10,305 nt of DNA from Clostridiales bacterium. Its GTDB lineage: Bacteria > Bacillota > Clostridia > Peptostreptococcales > T1SED10-28. The number at the start of each line of letters is the position of its first letter. Positions within the stretch are counted from its first letter, which is position 1. The stretch lies in the NCBI GenBank assembly GCA_007134725.1, contig SLKF01000151.1, forward strand, positions 1 through 10,305, given 5' to 3'. Shown here one piece after another: positions 3,194-9,993 of the stretch. The position numbers and the translations under genes were made by a program. The notes under the pieces are model-generated. The model saw only the letters and a list, made by a program, of their open reading frames with translations. It did not search any database and was not told the DNA's origin.

Positions 3194-3204
3194 TATGATA
3201 AAAT
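3194..3204 (+). promoter_or_regulatory. Possible -10 region for the pullulanase gene
   Basis: The 11-mer TATGATAAAAT offers TATGAT or TAAAAT as a -10 about 45 nt upstream of the pullulanase ATG. No good -35 is visible at 16-18 bp, so this is weak. The divergent Pho box ends 28 bp upstream and could affect this promoter too. Confidence 0.35.
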
Positions 3205-3232
3205 ATCTTAAAGCTTATCGAGGCTTTGATAA

Positions 3233-3240
3233 AAGGAGGA
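3233..3240 (+). promoter_or_regulatory. Ribosome binding site fixing the pullulanase start
   Basis: AAGGAGGA lies 5 nt before the ATG at 3246. The reading frame is open upstream to an ATG at 3195, but that codon has no ribosome binding site and sits on the putative -10. The 17 extra residues it would add resemble no pullulanase N-terminus. The start at 3246 is therefore preferred. Confidence 0.85.
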
Positions 3241-3245
3241 AGATA

Positions 3246-5360
3246 ATGGATTTTTTAACCAAAGAAAAATATACCAACGGCTACGGCCGTCCTTATTATA
3301 AGGGTCCTCTAGGACCTATTCTACATCCGGATAATAGCGCCACCCTTACCCTCTGGTCTCCCAGTGCGGATGAAGTGCATGTGGTTTTATATGATCCCAA
3401 GGACCCTGATCAAGTTGTTAAGGATAACCTTCCCATGGAAAAAGGGGATAAGGGTTCTTGGCATATCACCTTAAACGAGGATAATACCGGTTTGCAGAGT
3501 TTAGAGTGCTATTATTACCATTATAAAATTACCCGTAAAAACAAAAGCGTTTTGGCTCTGGATCCCTATGCCCCCTCCATGGCCATATGGAACCAGGAGG
3601 ATCCAAAAAATTATGTGGGAAAAGGAGCCATCATCAATCCTTCGATGATTGGTCCTAATCTGGACTTTGCCGCTATCCCGGGTTATGAAAAACGGGAAGA
3701 CGGGATTATTTATGAGGTCCACGTTCGGGATTTCACTTCGGACCCGGAAATTGAACCCGAGCTGAGTCATCCCTTTGGAACCTTTACGGCTTTTATCGAT
3801 CGGCTGGATTATATTAAAGACCTCGGGGTAACCCATGTTCAACTCCTGCCGATCATGAGTTATTATTTTGCCAATGAATACCGGCGGGGAGAGCGAATTC
3901 TCGAATATTCTTCTAAGGGCAACAATTACAATTGGGGGTACGACCCCCACAGCTATTTCTCCATTAGCGGAATGTATTCCGAAGCCCCGGAAGACCCGAG
4001 AAAACGCATTGAGGAGTTTAAAAAATTAGTGCAGGAAATTCACAAAAGGGGAATGGGCATCATCCTGGATGTGGTGTACAATCACACCGCCTCGGTTCAT
4101 ATTCTGGAAGATTTGGAACCCCATTACTACCACTTTATGAATGCGGATGGTTCGCCACGGGAAAGTTTCGGCGGGGGCCGCCTGGGCACCACCCATAGAA
4201 TGGCCCGCCGCCTTCTACTTGATTCTATTCTTTACTGGGTTAAAGAGTTTAACGTGGACGGTTTTCGATTTGATATGATGGGAGACCATGATGCGGAAAC
4301 CATTCAAATGGCCTATGACCTAAGCAAAAAAATCAACCCCCGTATTTTGATGATCGGGGAAGGCTGGCGAACCTTTTCCGGTGATGAAGGGGCTCGAAGA
4401 GTACTGGCTGCGGATCAGGATTGGATGCAGTATACCCAAAGTGTGGGATCTTTCTCCGATGACTTTCGAAACGAGTTGAAATCCGGTTTCGGCTGTGAAG
4501 GAGAACCCCGGTTTTTAACCGGAGGCCCCCGGAGTATTCATCACGTGTATGATAATCTTCGGGCAATGCCTAAAAATTTCAAAGCCAGCCATCCCGGAGA
4601 TGTGGTACCCTATATCGAAGCCCATGATAATCTTACCCTTCATGATGTCATTGCCCAGTCGATAAAAAAGGATCCCAAATACCACGAAGAGGAGATTCAA
4701 CGTCGCATTCGCCTGGGGAATCTGATGGTGCTTACCGCCCAGGGTACGGCTTTTCTTCACGCCGGTCAGGAATACGGACGGACCAAACAGTTTCTACACC
4801 CGGACTATAAATACCCGGTAAAGACCCCACCTTATAAGTCCACTTTTATGGCGGATAACAATGGAAAACCTTTTGAGTTTCCTTATTTTATTCATGATTC
4901 CTATGACTCCAGCGATGCGGTTAACCTCTTTCACTGGGCTCGGGTTAAGGATGCAAAAAATTATCCCCTGCATGCCCAAACCCGGAAGTACACCAAGGGA
5001 CTGGTCCATCTGAGGCGATCCAGCGATGCCTTCCGTCACAAAACCATGGAAGCGATCTTTCGAAAAGTTACGAAAATCCATGCCGCGGAAATTGGCAGTT
5101 GGGATCTTGTTATTGCTTATCGCCTGGAAAATACCGAGGGAACGGAAGCTTACTATGTTTTCATAAATGCAGACCAAATTCCCAGAAAACTGACTTTCCA
5201 TCATGATTTGCGCCAGGGCCAGGTCCTTGTAGATCGGGAACGGGCGGGAACCGAAGAAATTTCCGTTCCCAAAGGCTTTTTCCTGGATAACCAGTCCATT
5301 TATTTGGAACCTTTGACCGCTGTGGTAATCAAAACTAAAGAAGTTTTCCTGGGCTATTAA
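3246..5360 (+). CDS. pulA: Type I pullulanase (GH13), cytoplasmic debranching enzyme
   Basis: Type I pullulanase hydrolyses alpha-1,6 branch links in pullulan, glycogen or branched maltodextrins. The product has 704 aa. An N-terminal beta-sandwich of CBM48 type covers about residues 20-120 (LTLWSPSADEVHVVLYD). The GH13 barrel follows, with the pullulanase signature YNWGYDP at 228-234. Conserved region I is DVVYNH (275-280). The nucleophile is Asp343 in GFRFDMMG, the acid/base is Glu372 in MIGEGW, and the transition-state Asp461 is in YIEAHDN. There is no signal peptide, transmembrane segment or surface-anchor domain, and the length is close to Bacillus AmyX, so it should act in the cytosol on stored or imported glucan. 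It stands alone, with no glycogen or maltose genes beside it, and is divergent from pst. The symbol amyX would be equally apt. Confidence 0.95.
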   Translation: MDFLTKEKYTNGYGRPYYKGPLGPILHPDNSATLTLWSPSADEVHVVLYDPKDPDQVVKDNLPMEKGDKGSWHITLNEDNTGLQSLECYYYHYKITRKNKSVLALDPYAPSMAIWNQEDPKNYVGKGAIINPSMIGPNLDFAAIPGYEKREDGIIYEVHVRDFTSDPEIEPELSHPFGTFTAFIDRLDYIKDLGVTHVQLLPIMSYYFANEYRRGERILEYSSKGNNYNWGYDPHSYFSISGMYSEAPEDPRKRIEEFKKLVQEIHKRGMGIILDVVYNHTASVHILEDLEPHYYHFMNADGSPRESFGGGRLGTTHRMARRLLLDSILYWVKEFNVDGFRFDMMGDHDAETIQMAYDLSKKINPRILMIGEGWRTFSGDEGARRVLAADQDWMQYTQSVGSFSDDFRNELKSGFGCEGEPRFLTGGPRSIHHVYDNLRAMPKNFKASHPGDVVPYIEAHDNLTLHDVIAQSIKKDPKYHEEEIQRRIRLGNLMVLTAQGTAFLHAGQEYGRTKQFLHPDYKYPVKTPPYKSTFMADNNGKPFEFPYFIHDSYDSSDAVNLFHWARVKDAKNYPLHAQTRKYTKGLVHLRRSSDAFRHKTMEAIFRKVTKIHAAEIGSWDLVIAYRLENTEGTEAYYVFINADQIPRKLTFHHDLRQGQVLVDRERAGTEEISVPKGFFLDNQSIYLEPLTAVVIKTKEVFLGY

Positions 5361-5400: not shown

Positions 5401-5420
5401 CTCATTTGATAGCTTTTCTG

Positions 5421-5466
5421 TTTACATTATGATAGACTATGATAATACAGCGATCATTTTTTGATC
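5421..5466 (+). promoter_or_regulatory. Possible promoter/operator region of the merT-like gene
   Basis: TTTACA at 5421-5426 could be a -35. Weak -10 candidates follow: TAATAC at 5443-5448 (16-bp spacing) and TATGAT at 5438-5443 (too close to TTTACA). The 7-mer TATGATA occurs twice, 10 bp apart (5428 and 5438). A short inverted repeat, GATCA (5452-5456) and TGATC (5462-5466), lies just upstream of the ribosome binding site and could be an operator or a small hairpin. The spacing is not that of a MerR-type promoter. Confidence 0.3.
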
Positions 5467-5485
5467 CATGAAGGGAGGCGATTCC

Positions 5486-5803
5486 ATGAATCGTGTCAAA
5501 TCCACACTTTCCGGCTTTGGTGCCCTTGTTGCATCTTTTTTTGCTATGATGTGTTGAGTAGGCCCTGTGATATTAGTGTCCCTCGGGTTAGGGACCTTCG
5601 GCCTTTCATTCTTTCAATCATTAGCACCTTACCGACCAATTTTTATCGTCCTTGCGGCAGGGTCCTTGGCCTATGTCCATATTCAAATGGAACAGGGAAA
5701 AATGAGTAAACGCTATAAAAAATTGATTTGGGTGATGACCATCCTTGCCGTGATTTTTTTATTCTTTCCCGTACTGGTAAACCAATTTGGCTTTCTCAGA
5801 TAA
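5486..5803 (+). CDS. MerT-like membrane transport protein, probable selenoprotein (UGA at codon 24)
   Basis: Reading the in-frame TGA at 5555-5557 as selenocysteine gives a 105-residue protein that resembles MerT, the inner-membrane mercuric-ion transporter, along its whole length. Helix 1 (about 8-28) carries Cys23-Sec24 followed by VGP, where MerT has CC-(L/I/V)-GP. Then come a Gly-rich LGLGTFGL segment, the conserved PYRPIFI (48-54) and a last helix (about 80-99) beginning KLIWV and ending FFP. The start ATG has AGGGAGG at 5472-5478 with a 7-nt spacer. There is one uninterrupted frame apart from the TGA, and a SECIS-like stem-loop follows at once. The second Cys pair of classical MerT, in the cytoplasmic loop, is absent: that loop (about 65-79) is short and Cys-free. 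No merA, merP or merR lies beside it, so mercury transport is not certain. The alternative is a pseudogene made by TGT-to-TGA. Confidence 0.85.
5558..5604 (+). promoter_or_regulatory. Candidate bacterial SECIS element directly after the UGA
   Basis: An apical stem GUCCCU (5578-5583) pairs perfectly with AGGGAC (5590-5595) and closes a 6-nt loop, CGGGUU, that has G at its second position. Below it, G5576 pairs with C5596 across a bulged U5577, as in the E. coli formate dehydrogenase element. An outer helix pairs AGGCC (5560-5564) with GGCCU (5600-5604), and its base is two bases past the UGA. The loop starts 27 nt after the UGA, within the usual 16-37 nt range for bacterial SECIS. It would recruit SelB with Sec-tRNA. 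The structure was folded by eye. Confidence 0.78.
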
Positions 5804-5906: not shown

Positions 5907-7637
5907 CTAAGAATTATCTTCCTCATGGGTTCGAAAATCCTGAATCAACAACTGCACGGATTCCCGGCCATTCCAAACATTCATTTCCGGGAAAAAAACC
6001 ACATCAATGGCACCGGGGCTTTGGAATTTTTCAAAATACTGCTCTACCATATTAAATCCAATGGCTTCCAAATCCTGTTTCCCACCAAAAACTCTTCCCT
6101 TCAGTTTTAAATGGGTTTTCTCTTTCCCTAAACGGATTTTCCCTTGATCAGGAACCCGAAGATCTTCTAAGAGAAATAAGGGTTTTTCATTCCCCATCCC
6201 ATAGGGTTCCATTTGATGAATGGTTTCAATAAACCCTTTATTGAGTTTCTCTTCCCCCAGGGTAGCGTAAATTTTGATCTTTTTCATGAACAGCTGGGGG
6301 GTTTTTTCTTTTAGTTCTTTTGCCCGTTGATTCAGTTCTTTTCGAAGCAGGGGAATCCTGTTTTTTTCCAAAGAAAGTCCGCAGGCTGCGGGATGCCCTC
6401 CGAATTTCAAAAAGAGGTCTTTATATCGGGCCATCTCCTGGTATAAATCAAAGCCCTCAATACTTCTTCCGCTGCCCTTATAAATTTGGGGATCTTCCGA
6501 ATTGGTCAGTACCAATACCGGTCGGTAATACGTTTCTTTAATTCTTCCCGCAATGATGCCGATAACCCCTTCATGAAGCCCTGGCAGGTCAATCACTAAA
6601 AAATCATCCTCCAGATACTTCTCTTCGATTTCTTTTAAACAGCGCTCCAAACCGCTCTGCTGAATTTCCTGTCGTTCTTCGTTGCATCGAGCCAGATGGC
6701 GGGCAATCTCCCCGGCACGATTGGCATCTTTGGTGAGCAGCAGTTCCACTCCACTGCGGGCCTCGGCAACTCTTCCCCCCGCATTGAAGTGGGGCCCGAT
6801 CATAAAACCGATATGCCCCGGGGTAATTTTTTTATCTCCCAGTCGAATTTCTTCTAGTAAAATTTTCAGGCCCAAACGCCGCCGCTCGTTGATTCGTTGC
6901 AATCCATACTTTAAAAGCGTCCGATTTTCATCCCTCAGGGGAACCACGTCGGCCACGGTGGCCAAGGCCACTAAATCAAGATTCTGATTAAGGATTTTTT
7001 TATCCAATTCCAGTCTTCGTTGAAGTCCCTGGGTTAGCTTAAAAGCCACCCCACAACCGGAAAGATCTTTGAATGGATACCCACAGTCTTTTCTTTTAGG
7101 ATTTATGACCAGGGCCTTGGGAAGTTCTTCTCCCGGAGTATGATGATCCGTGATAATGACCGGCACCCCTTGTTTTTTTAAATAGGCCACCTCTTCCAGG
7201 GCGGTAATCCCGCAGTCTACCGATATTAGCAAAGCAGGCTTTCGGGTTTCCACCAGCTCTTCTAATGTTTCCCGATTCAGACCATAACCTTCTTCCTGGC
7301 GATTGGGAATATGGTAGGATATGTTATCATAAAAATTGTTGAAAAAATCCATCAACAAGGTGGTGGACGTAATGCCATCCACATCGTAATCTCCATAAAC
7401 AATAATATGTCCCTGTTTTTCTAAGACTTCTTCAATCAAGTCACAGGCTTCAGCTAAATCTTTCATCAGAAAAGGGTCGTAAGTTTTTTTTGGTTTATCG
7501 CTTAAAAACTCCTGGATCTCGTTGGCATCGGTGATGCCTTTTTGATGAAGGATCCGGGTAATCACCGGATCAATTCCCGGTATCTCAATACTTTCATCCT
7601 CTTTAATTTCCAGGGTTTTCCATAGGGTTTTATGCAT
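5907..7637 (-). CDS. recJ: RecJ, single-stranded-DNA-specific 5'-3' exonuclease
   Basis: RecJ is a DHH-family, metal-dependent nuclease that degrades single-stranded DNA 5' to 3' in recombination and mismatch or base-excision repair. The 576-residue product has motif I YGDYDVDG (81-88), an aspartate in VDCGIT (140-145), the DHH triad at 164-166 and the SGCG segment (193-196). A DHHA1 domain follows, with GVIGIIAGR (357-365), GSGRS (388-392) and the conserved GGHPAACG (413-420). The remainder, about 150 residues, corresponds to the OB-like C-terminal domain. The length equals the classical short RecJ. The ATG at 7637 has AGGAGC about 9 nt upstream. It is single, convergent with the merT-like gene and divergent from the amidase, with no operon partner in view. 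Confidence 0.95.
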   Translation of the reverse strand: MHKTLWKTLEIKEDESIEIPGIDPVITRILHQKGITDANEIQEFLSDKPKKTYDPFLMKDLAEACDLIEEVLEKQGHIIVYGDYDVDGITSTTLLMDFFNNFYDNISYHIPNRQEEGYGLNRETLEELVETRKPALLISVDCGITALEEVAYLKKQGVPVIITDHHTPGEELPKALVINPKRKDCGYPFKDLSGCGVAFKLTQGLQRRLELDKKILNQNLDLVALATVADVVPLRDENRTLLKYGLQRINERRRLGLKILLEEIRLGDKKITPGHIGFMIGPHFNAGGRVAEARSGVELLLTKDANRAGEIARHLARCNEERQEIQQSGLERCLKEIEEKYLEDDFLVIDLPGLHEGVIGIIAGRIKETYYRPVLVLTNSEDPQIYKGSGRSIEGFDLYQEMARYKDLFLKFGGHPAACGLSLEKNRIPLLRKELNQRAKELKEKTPQLFMKKIKIYATLGEEKLNKGFIETIHQMEPYGMGNEKPLFLLEDLRVPDQGKIRLGKEKTHLKLKGRVFGGKQDLEAIGFNMVEQYFEKFQSPGAIDVVFFPEMNVWNGRESVQLLIQDFRTHEEDNS

Positions 7638-8701: not shown

Positions 8702-9993
8702 TTACTCAATTTTATTTAAGACGTCATAGACTTTGCTGATGGAAAGATCCTGTTCCTTTGCAATCCGTCGGCAATCTTCATATTCCGGAGTGGACTTTAC
8801 TCTTTCCCCTTGATAATAGCCTTCTTTAAAGGTAACCCTCCCAAAAGGGGTTTCTTTTTTTATAAACCTTCGTTCCAAAGCTTCCCGTTGAATCTCGCTT
8901 GCACGAATGCCTAATGTTGTGGTTTCAAGAAAAATCATTTTTTTCATTTTTCCCACAGAATCCTCTTCTACCAATACACTCAGCTTTGTACCCGGGCGAT
9001 TCTTTTTCATCATAATCGGGCTAAGGTATACATCCAGGGCTCCTTCTTGGAAAAACTTTTCAAAAACATAAGAATAAATTTCCGGATTCATATCATCAAT
9101 ATTGGTCTCCAAGAGCCATAGCTTTTCCGGTTCTAATTGATCGGGTAATTTACTTTTTTTTTACCCACCAGTACCCGAAGGACATTGGTGATTTCCAAAT
9201 CCTTGGTACCCAGTCCATAGCCGATCTTTTCAATCTCCATCATGGGAATTTCCATAAACTCCTCCGCCAGCACTTTCACAATTGCTGCCCCGGTGGGGGT
9301 TACCAACTCACTTCGAATCCCGGTGGAGTACACCGGAATTCCCTTTAAAATTTCCAAGGTTGCCGGAGCCGGTACCGGAATTCTTCCATGGGCACATTGT
9401 ACAAATCCGGTTCCGATATGTAGGGGCGAAGACATAATTCGATCGGGATTTAACTGATGAATCAAAATCGCAACCCCAATAATATCCACAAGGGAATCGA
9501 TGGCTCCCACTTCATGAAAATGTACCTGGTCAATGGGCTTGTCATGAATCTTTGCTTCCGCTTGAGCCACATGCATAAATATTTCTTTACTCATATTTTT
9601 TACCGGTTCTGCTAAAGCACTGTCATCAATAAGCTTTTCGATATCTTTAAGATTTCGATGGTGGTGGTCTTCAACCTCATGGGAATGATCATGTCCCGGA
9701 TGAGCACCATGGCTATGATGCTCGTGGTCATGGCCGTGGTCATGGCTACTATGGTTCTTGTTAGGATGGTCATGAAGGAGGGCTCCGGCCTTTTCTATAA
9801 TGACATCAAAGTCGATACCCGTAATCCCGTTTTTCTGATTTTTTTCAATTTTTAAACGGTAGCCTTCCAACCTTACTTTTTCAAGTTCTGCCAAAAAAGC
9901 CTCTTGATCCAACCCTAAATCCAGCAATGCACCAATGGTCATATCTCCACTAATTCCCGATAAGCAGTTCAAATACAGGATTCGCTCTTCCAT
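8702..9993 (-). CDS. larC: LarC, nickel-insertion protein of the nickel-pincer cofactor pathway, in two frames joined by -1 frameshift
   Basis: LarC inserts nickel into the pyridinium bisthiocarboxylate nucleotide to give the nickel-pincer cofactor of lactate racemase-type enzymes. The 5' frame (9993-9133, 286 codons) holds the N-terminal domain: GISGDM (13-18), a His-rich stretch (74-112, 17 His), HFHEVGAIDS (158-167) and ELVTPTGAAI (229-238). It stops six codons after an A9 run. The 3' frame (to 8702) holds the C-terminal domain, ETNIDDMNPE and MKKNRPGTKLSVL. Slipping back one base on the A-run joins Lys280 to S-K-L-P-D and gives one 430-residue protein, normal for LarC. The 3' frame lacks a ribosome binding site at its first TTG (9112). 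In Lactobacillus plantarum larC1/larC2 are likewise expressed by frameshifting. The ATG at 9993 follows GGGAGG and lies 4 nt after the larB stop. Confidence 0.9.
9154..9162 (-). other. Slippery A9 run, proposed -1 ribosomal frameshift site in larC
   Basis: On the minus strand the zero frame reads GGT AAA AAA AAA GTA, then reaches TAG at 9135-9133. In the -1 frame the codon after the lysines is AGT and the frame runs open into the C-terminal LarC domain. A_AAA_AAA is a valid tandem-slippage heptamer. I found no convincing downstream stem-loop by eye. A homopolymer sequencing error or a true frameshift mutation would look the same. Confidence 0.75.

Follow-up and report, generated by a model that had tools for sequence, protein, structure and literature searches.

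The gene and its surroundings

The DNA analyzed here, called the window, is a stretch of 10,305 nucleotides, contig 147 of assembly G000 (2.06 Mb in 308 contigs, 80% complete). At positions 5486 to 5803 of its forward strand lies a single reading frame of 105 codons followed by TAA, with one in-frame TGA at codon 24 (5555 to 5557), directly 3' of the TGT of Cys23 (5552 to 5554). On the basis of its translation, a match to Pfam MerT and 39 homologous loci with the same TGA, the frame is annotated as the gene of a short MerT-type selenoprotein of 105 residues, in which the UGA is predicted to be selenocysteine 24 (Sec24). The initial annotation had described a single frame with a ribosome binding site, interrupted only by this TGA and carrying MerT motifs, and those motifs are present in the translation; the ribosome binding site-like GGGAGG is read from the sequence at 5473 to 5478 (+), 5' of the ATG at 5486. 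A promoter-like pair, TTGATA-16-TATGAT, is found at 5406 to 5433 (+) and is graded as weak because the region holds two such sites versus a shuffle mean of 1.7.

Hydropathy peaks of the protein fall at residues 13-31 (2.42), 46-64 (1.44) and 79-97 (2.44), giving two strong hydrophobic segments and a weak second one, and the Cys23-Sec24 pair sits inside the first. Among five genomes of the same genus (10 pairs), pN/pS is 0.05-0.43 before the TGA and 0.06-0.19 after it; purifying selection acts on both sides of the codon.

No mer genes adjoin this gene. Profiling of the neighbors identified an unrelated alpha-amylase/CBM48/SpuA_C gene (pullulanase-type) upstream at 3195 to 5360 (+), and an equally unrelated, convergent RecJ-type DHH exonuclease gene downstream at 5907 to 7637 (-). 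Apart from the MerT-type gene the window's genes look ordinary: besides the pullulanase-type enzyme and RecJ they comprise ABC transporter genes, phosphate-type by our own reading, an amidase, larC (nickel insertion) and an AIRC-type gene. The larC gene, at 8702 to 9993 (-), is split over two overlapping frames, the first ending at 9133 and the second open upstream of 9112, with a run of A near their junction. Other bacteria are known to use programmed frameshifting in larC.

Conservation of the Cys-UGA pair

Homologues were found in 19 of 60 genomes, the window's own included. Eighteen of these have exactly one TGA, at the window's codon; the remaining genome, G018, has TGT. Profile scans covered 391 genomes of the class, with matches in 10, G018 and G252 being Cys-Cys, and 393 genomes of the order, with matches in 33. 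With overlaps between scans removed and one poor partial match dropped, the total is 39 TGA loci in 37 genomes, and the Cys-UGA pair is kept in all 39. Intact Cys-Cys loci number two, G018 and G252, both with TGT at the codon. The search for homologues with TGA or TGC/TGT at this position, which the initial annotation had proposed, thus yielded both kinds. A partial match in G041 (L024), with one TGA and one TAA and 31% identity over 68 residues, was left out of the counts. A candidate Sec-UAG case on contig 36 of G454 (L122) was rejected: the gene there is a Cys-Cys MerT copy whose frame is interrupted by TAG at a different position, and G454 has a Sec copy as well.

Standard gene callers split the gene, as the initial annotation had expected, and protein databases hold members of this branch in damaged form. 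P0002 (81 aa, "hypothetical protein [Isachenkonia alkalipeptolytica]") is a false short gene of this type. P0003 and many of P0007-P0059 have W at the Sec site, and others begin just after the UGA; the W entries apparently stem from gene calls in which TGA was translated as Trp.

A tree of 60 proteins (104 columns, many open forks) separates the 39 Sec forms and five short Cys forms from 16 classical sequences (93/82). The five short Cys forms are G018, G252 and the database proteins P0013, P0058 and P0061, the last three known as proteins only, and they are scattered among the Sec forms at three or more points. The simplest reading of this tree is that Sec arose early in the short branch, with repeated return to Cys afterwards. 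A Cys form together with loss of the Sec machinery is directly seen for G018 and G252. The second MerT copy of G493 groups with G571, G252, P0058 and P0061 (100/98), in a different sub-branch from the window's.

A hairpin downstream of the UGA

A bacterial SECIS-like hairpin, recognized by its pairing and by comparison with synonymous shuffles, lies at 5578 to 5595 (+). The hairpin, 21-39 nt after the UGA, pairs GUCCCU with AGGGAC (6 bp) around the loop CGGGUU, which is 26 nt from the UGA. A possible lower stem, AGGCC with GGCCU (5560 to 5604, +), comes from a fold of the window sequence only and is graded as weak because other genera fold differently. In other genera the register and letters of the main stem change and the pairing is kept. 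When pairs are counted in one of four registers, 24 of the 39 loci have all six, 11 have five and four have four.

In 23 loci from 21 genera, 124 of 138 pairs are formed; 20,000 shuffles among synonymous codons give 87.8 +/- 4.6, with a maximum of 106. The resulting z of 7.9 errs on the optimistic side, since the registers, three and then four, were picked after looking at the sequences. The 23 loci are mutually related, and G011 and G493 each contribute two paralogues. With the tested positions displaced by -6, -3, +3 or +6 nt, z ranges from -0.74 to -0.35 (2,000 shuffles each). An earlier test with three registers gave 70 of 78 pairs in 13 loci, with a null of 52.0.

Covariation was evaluated in 18 of the 39 sequences: 12 in complete agreement with one register, plus six more. 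Most of the sequences that use a different register for pairing are among the 21 outside this set. Within the 18 chosen rows, 92.6% of cells pair versus 25-50% for slid versions, and columns 24 and 36, both third codon positions, pair as A-U in six rows, G-C in five, C-G in two and G-U in one, with four unpaired. Three of the five measures used (cells paired, cells changed on both sides, and covariation) were each reached by 0 of 500 shuffles, and the other two, reached by 31 and 268 of 500, do not go beyond the shuffles.

Folding energies say less. The window's 54 nt are not significant against dinucleotide shuffles (z -0.55), and minimum-energy folds compared with synonymous shuffles show a modest effect, with a mean z of -1.07 for 24 UGA sequences and +1.12 and +0.57 for two Cys sequences. 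Three Cys loci also keep 14 of 18 pairs (null 10.3, P 0.014), which we interpret as a remnant from an ancestor that had Sec, with a link to the coded SLGLG motif as another possibility. The apical loop has a G, but the GG there also codes glycine and occurs in Cys loci, and is therefore uninformative alone. The hairpin gave no Rfam match at the gathering score. Taken across the loci, the hairpin is conserved well beyond synonymous shuffles.

Selenocysteine machinery

Of the 37 Sec genomes, 35 have a SelB that passes its cut-off; the exceptions are the incomplete MAGs G000 (80% complete) and G003 (63%). The two Cys-only genomes, G018 and G252, both single contigs that are 99% complete, have no SelB over the cut-off. 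Because the tRNA-Sec model also produces matches close to the threshold, some of them in control genomes, the count was restricted to high scores. Among the 60 genomes, 15 of the 18 with Sec have a tRNA-Sec above 60 bits (the exceptions are G000, G003 and G022), and G018 has none at that score.

The initial annotation had named the sel genes as a check, and within the window's own assembly the outcome is divided: selD is present, itself with a UGA at its SGUAGK site, and selA, selB and tRNA-Sec were not found in this 80% complete assembly. The last three stand side by side in G001, G002, G004 and G005, and G001, G002 and G004, of the same genus as the window, have all of selA, selB, selC and selD. 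The absence from G000 is most likely an assembly gap.

The 39 conserved Cys-UGA loci, the distribution of SelB and the conservation of the hairpin together argue that 5486 to 5803 almost certainly encodes a selenoprotein, with Sec predicted from UGA. This upholds the central proposal of the initial annotation, that Cys-Sec replaces the Cys-Cys pair of the first MerT helix.

Placement in the MerT family

With C written for U, the window protein matches Pfam MerT (PF02411) with 37.8 bits against a gathering cut-off of 32.9, and it has a vicinal pair, here Cys-Sec, in its first membrane segment. Against the MerT equivalog model NF010314 it reaches 42.7 bits, under the cut-off of 150. Classical MerT (NF010314) and MerF share with it the vicinal pair of the first helix and an APYRP-type segment. 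Classical MerT has Cys-Cys and a further pair of cysteines in the loop that joins segments 2 and 3; in the window protein the pair is Cys-Sec and the loop is free of Cys. Between +50 and +60 from the pair, a Cys is present in 0 of 39 Sec copies versus 24 of 24 classical CC sequences, 12 of which have two, in a count that leaves out P0067-P0070, which begin after the pair and so are without it.

Two further models come close. NF033560 (merT_RC607), a short MerT of 97 positions, matches the window protein with E 7e-8 and the mer-cluster copy of G493 with E 5e-17; both copies are under its 130-bit cut-off and both have a predicted Sec. NF045683, a MerT/CopZ fusion-like heavy metal transport selenoprotein, aligns its N-terminal MerT part, and that part only, with the window protein at 35.7 bits (E 6e-9, cut-off 375), and has 235 positions versus 105 residues. 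Its C-terminal part seems to resemble small HMA-type proteins. None of 398 genomes of the phylum reaches the NF045683 cut-off, and the best matches below it fall on the C-terminal part of the model. In a tblastn search the window protein also aligned with plasmid-borne merT genes (3,659 records, all below 60% identity). The family alignment brought up no solved structure similar by sequence, and a classical member gave only weak, unrelated matches.

Judged by its sequence, the window protein is a member of a short branch of Pfam MerT that has no loop Cys, and is not a classical MerT. The initial annotation's term "MerT-like transporter" holds for the Pfam family and fails for the classical protein, given the missing loop Cys, the low equivalog score and the lack of mer genes nearby.

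Gene neighborhoods of the relatives

Clustering of the open reading frames around 25 loci supplied 29 queries for profiling, 27 of them distinct. Later, 16 loci were read for MerT, and these, the first 25 and the window were scanned for HMA-type motifs; the scan gave one match, at L132. Flanking genes are common within families, for example in six loci of one family, and no neighbor is common to the orphan copies across families in the 25 clustered loci. In the window's family, five other loci share an upstream gene and four of them a convergent downstream gene (the contig of the fifth ends), in agreement in place and length with the pullulanase-type and recJ genes of the window.

MerA scores over its cut-off in one of 39 genomes, that of G493 from the same order, where it lies beside the second MerT-Sec copy; the window's assembly has no MerA over the cut-off. 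The G493 locus (L132, contig 35, 3517-9022) is a mer-type cluster with up to four UGA-containing genes. It comprises MerB, MerT-Sec, an HMA-type lipoprotein, an ArsR-type regulator, MerA and a CopZ-type 2Fe-2S protein, of which MerB, MerA and the CopZ-type protein score over their cut-offs. The CopZ-type protein has a Cys-UGA near its start. The MerP-like lipoprotein has an HMA-type domain with the metal motif GFT-UGA-ASC and falls under every MerP and CopZ cut-off. A further upstream frame, similar by eye, also has a UGA. In G252, which is without SelB, MerT, an ArsR-type regulator and a CopZ-type protein adjoin, all with Cys. CopZ_Nterm does not track MerT-Sec: among the 18 Sec genomes of the 60, only G007 has it over the cut-off, with a TAA in frame.

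Relatives of the G493 MerT occur in fifteen plasmid records, 13 from Enterococcus and one each from Cytobacillus and Alkalihalophilus. In the three records that were read, the corresponding Cys is directly followed by TGA, the CDS in RefSeq runs across this codon, and the gene order is merR, merF, merT, merA. RefSeq holds Bacilli plasmid proteins of about 100 residues under the name "mercuric transporter MerT family protein" (WP_250634606.1, WP_250634608.1, WP_252100557.1), with Cys and TGA at the same place; they sit in a mer operon with merR, merF and merA, whereas the window copy stands alone. The Cytobacillus and Alkalihalophilus plasmids also carry, between merT and merA, a gene for a MerP-like lipoprotein with GFT-UGA-VSC (L148, 3804-4160; L149, 3807-4163). 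One record annotates it as a 52-codon hypothetical gene ending at the UGA; the other leaves it unannotated.

On the Enterococcus faecalis plasmid (L147), the MerT gene with its in-frame TGA is at 3995-4294, adjoined by merF. Enterococcus faecalis is not known to have Sec decoding genes; if it has none, its MerT copy would end at the UGA. For E. durans, selA and selB are recorded in the available text of PMC8894896. A record named Enterococcus phage Efs 1-1-1 (OR846656.1, H33) has a MerT stretch at 3813-4091 that is 44% identical to the G493 MerT.

Relation to earlier reports

The initial annotation could not say whether this family was catalogued. In outline it is. The available parts of PMC9312934 and PMC13188914 contain selenoprotein tables that list PF02411, "putative mercuric transport protein", with the example ABB16073.1, and trace the entry to Zhang and Gladyshev 2007. 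That entry, like the window protein, is a MerT-family protein with Sec predicted from UGA; as tabulated there, it has one example and the motif C/SxxU, whereas the window branch has a strict Cys-Sec pair. The same mercuric transport family and a "mercuric transport protein MerP" are among the GOS selenoproteins in the portion of PMC2398784 available. Sec in the MerT family is therefore already in print and in RefSeq, with NF045683 and the plasmid CDSs as further entries, and this branch is poorly annotated.

The available portion of PMC12013277 has no match for mercury, MerT or MerP, and in that of a review of mercury-tolerant microbes (PMC12195606) selenoproteins occur only in a reference. 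Among the matches listed in a full-text literature search, judged by title and start of abstract, there is no paper on a Sec MerT or MerP in mer operons. Among those matches, this branch, its switching between Sec and Cys together with SelB and the pairing of a Sec MerP with a Sec MerT were not found in print.

Possible function and alternatives

The UGA would be decoded as Sec by SelB and tRNA-Sec, helped by the hairpin just downstream. The Cys23-Sec24 pair in the first helix would then most likely capture a soft, thiophilic metal ion, Hg(II) first, and the ion would be handed across the membrane to cytoplasmic thiols or a chaperone; with no loop Cys, it would go there straight. Selenolates have a higher affinity for Hg(II) than thiolates do. 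Handling of a soft metal, mercury above all, is favored because the MerT of relatives sits in mer clusters with MerA and a UGA-containing MerP-like lipoprotein, and on comparison of sequences it is a probable role of the protein. Mercury specifically, as the substrate of the window copy, is a more doubtful proposal that we hold tentatively. The mercury link made by the initial annotation stands for the relatives, by gene neighborhood; at the window no mer genes adjoin, and the same substrate, like metal binding and the direction of transport, can only be supposed for this orphan copy. Several observations count against this explanation: 0 of 39 Sec copies have loop cysteines to hand an ion on, the mer context belongs to another sub-branch, orphan copies from different families share no neighbor in the clustered loci, the MerP-like lipoprotein of G493 falls short of all MerP and CopZ cut-offs, and the second hydrophobic segment is weak. 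Moreover, the window genome has no MerA over the cut-off, and Hg(II) import would therefore bring it no benefit by the classical route.

Readings that deny Sec altogether can be set aside. A pseudogene, in which a true nonsense mutation splits an old MerT gene, would account for the stop codon in the frame and has a parallel in the Cys-Cys copy of G454 broken by TAG; it is rejected as extremely improbable, given the identical TGA codon in 39 loci, the kept hairpin and the purifying selection on both sides. Reading of the UGA as another amino acid such as Trp might be suspected from the W shown in some databases and from the fact that none of the nine other window genes ends in TGA. That reading has next to nothing left in its favor with Cys at the site in relatives without SelB and in classical MerT, and with the genome's own selD carrying a UGA at its Sec site. 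A sequencing error, equally far-fetched, is implausible across 39 loci, and both were rejected.

Readings that keep Sec and change the function carry more weight. The main rival for the orphan window copy is a membrane thiol-selenol oxidoreductase, whose Cys-Sec pair would form a selenenylsulfide and serve redox or selenium handling with no metal transport. It fits a gene that stands alone, a set of 39 genomes of which one has MerA over the cut-off, and a protein with one vicinal pair and no second ligand pair, yet it fits poorly with membership in the MerT family, with relatives located in mer clusters and with the Cys-Cys version of G252 beside an ArsR-type regulator and a CopZ-type chaperone; on balance it is unlikely, though to be taken seriously. 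That same G252 cluster, which combines MerT-CC, an ArsR-type regulator and CopZ_Nterm with no MerA over the cut-off, is what speaks for another soft metal or metalloid (for example copper, arsenic species or excess selenide) handled together with a CopZ-type 2Fe-2S chaperone, as does the NCBIfam name of a MerT/CopZ fusion-like selenoprotein. Such a substrate is somewhat less likely still: the clusters with an unmistakable metal signature have MerA with MerB or MerR, and CopZ_Nterm passes its cut-off in just the one Sec genome among the 60 noted above. The best explanation as a whole, and a reasonably probable one, is a Sec-containing short-branch MerT that captures a soft metal, Hg(II) first.

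A broader and more speculative model is a selenium-based metal relay. In chromosomal and plasmid mer clusters, a MerP-like GFT-Sec-xx-Cys lipoprotein outside, the Cys-Sec of MerT in the membrane and, in the clostridial cluster, the Cys-Sec of a CopZ-type 2Fe-2S protein might pass Hg(II) inward by selenolate exchange, and the orphan chromosomal copies, the window's included, might act as a selenolate metal gate without MerA.

Databases hold the genes of this branch truncated or with a false Trp, and the MerP-like partner cut at the UGA or unannotated. The presence of Sec at the presumed metal-capturing site of MerT, with Cys there in two relatives without SelB, makes the gain of Sec at a metal-binding, non-redox site a testable proposition. 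That selenium binds mercury more tightly than sulfur does is treated mainly as a matter of toxicology, and the genomes described here appear to put it to use.
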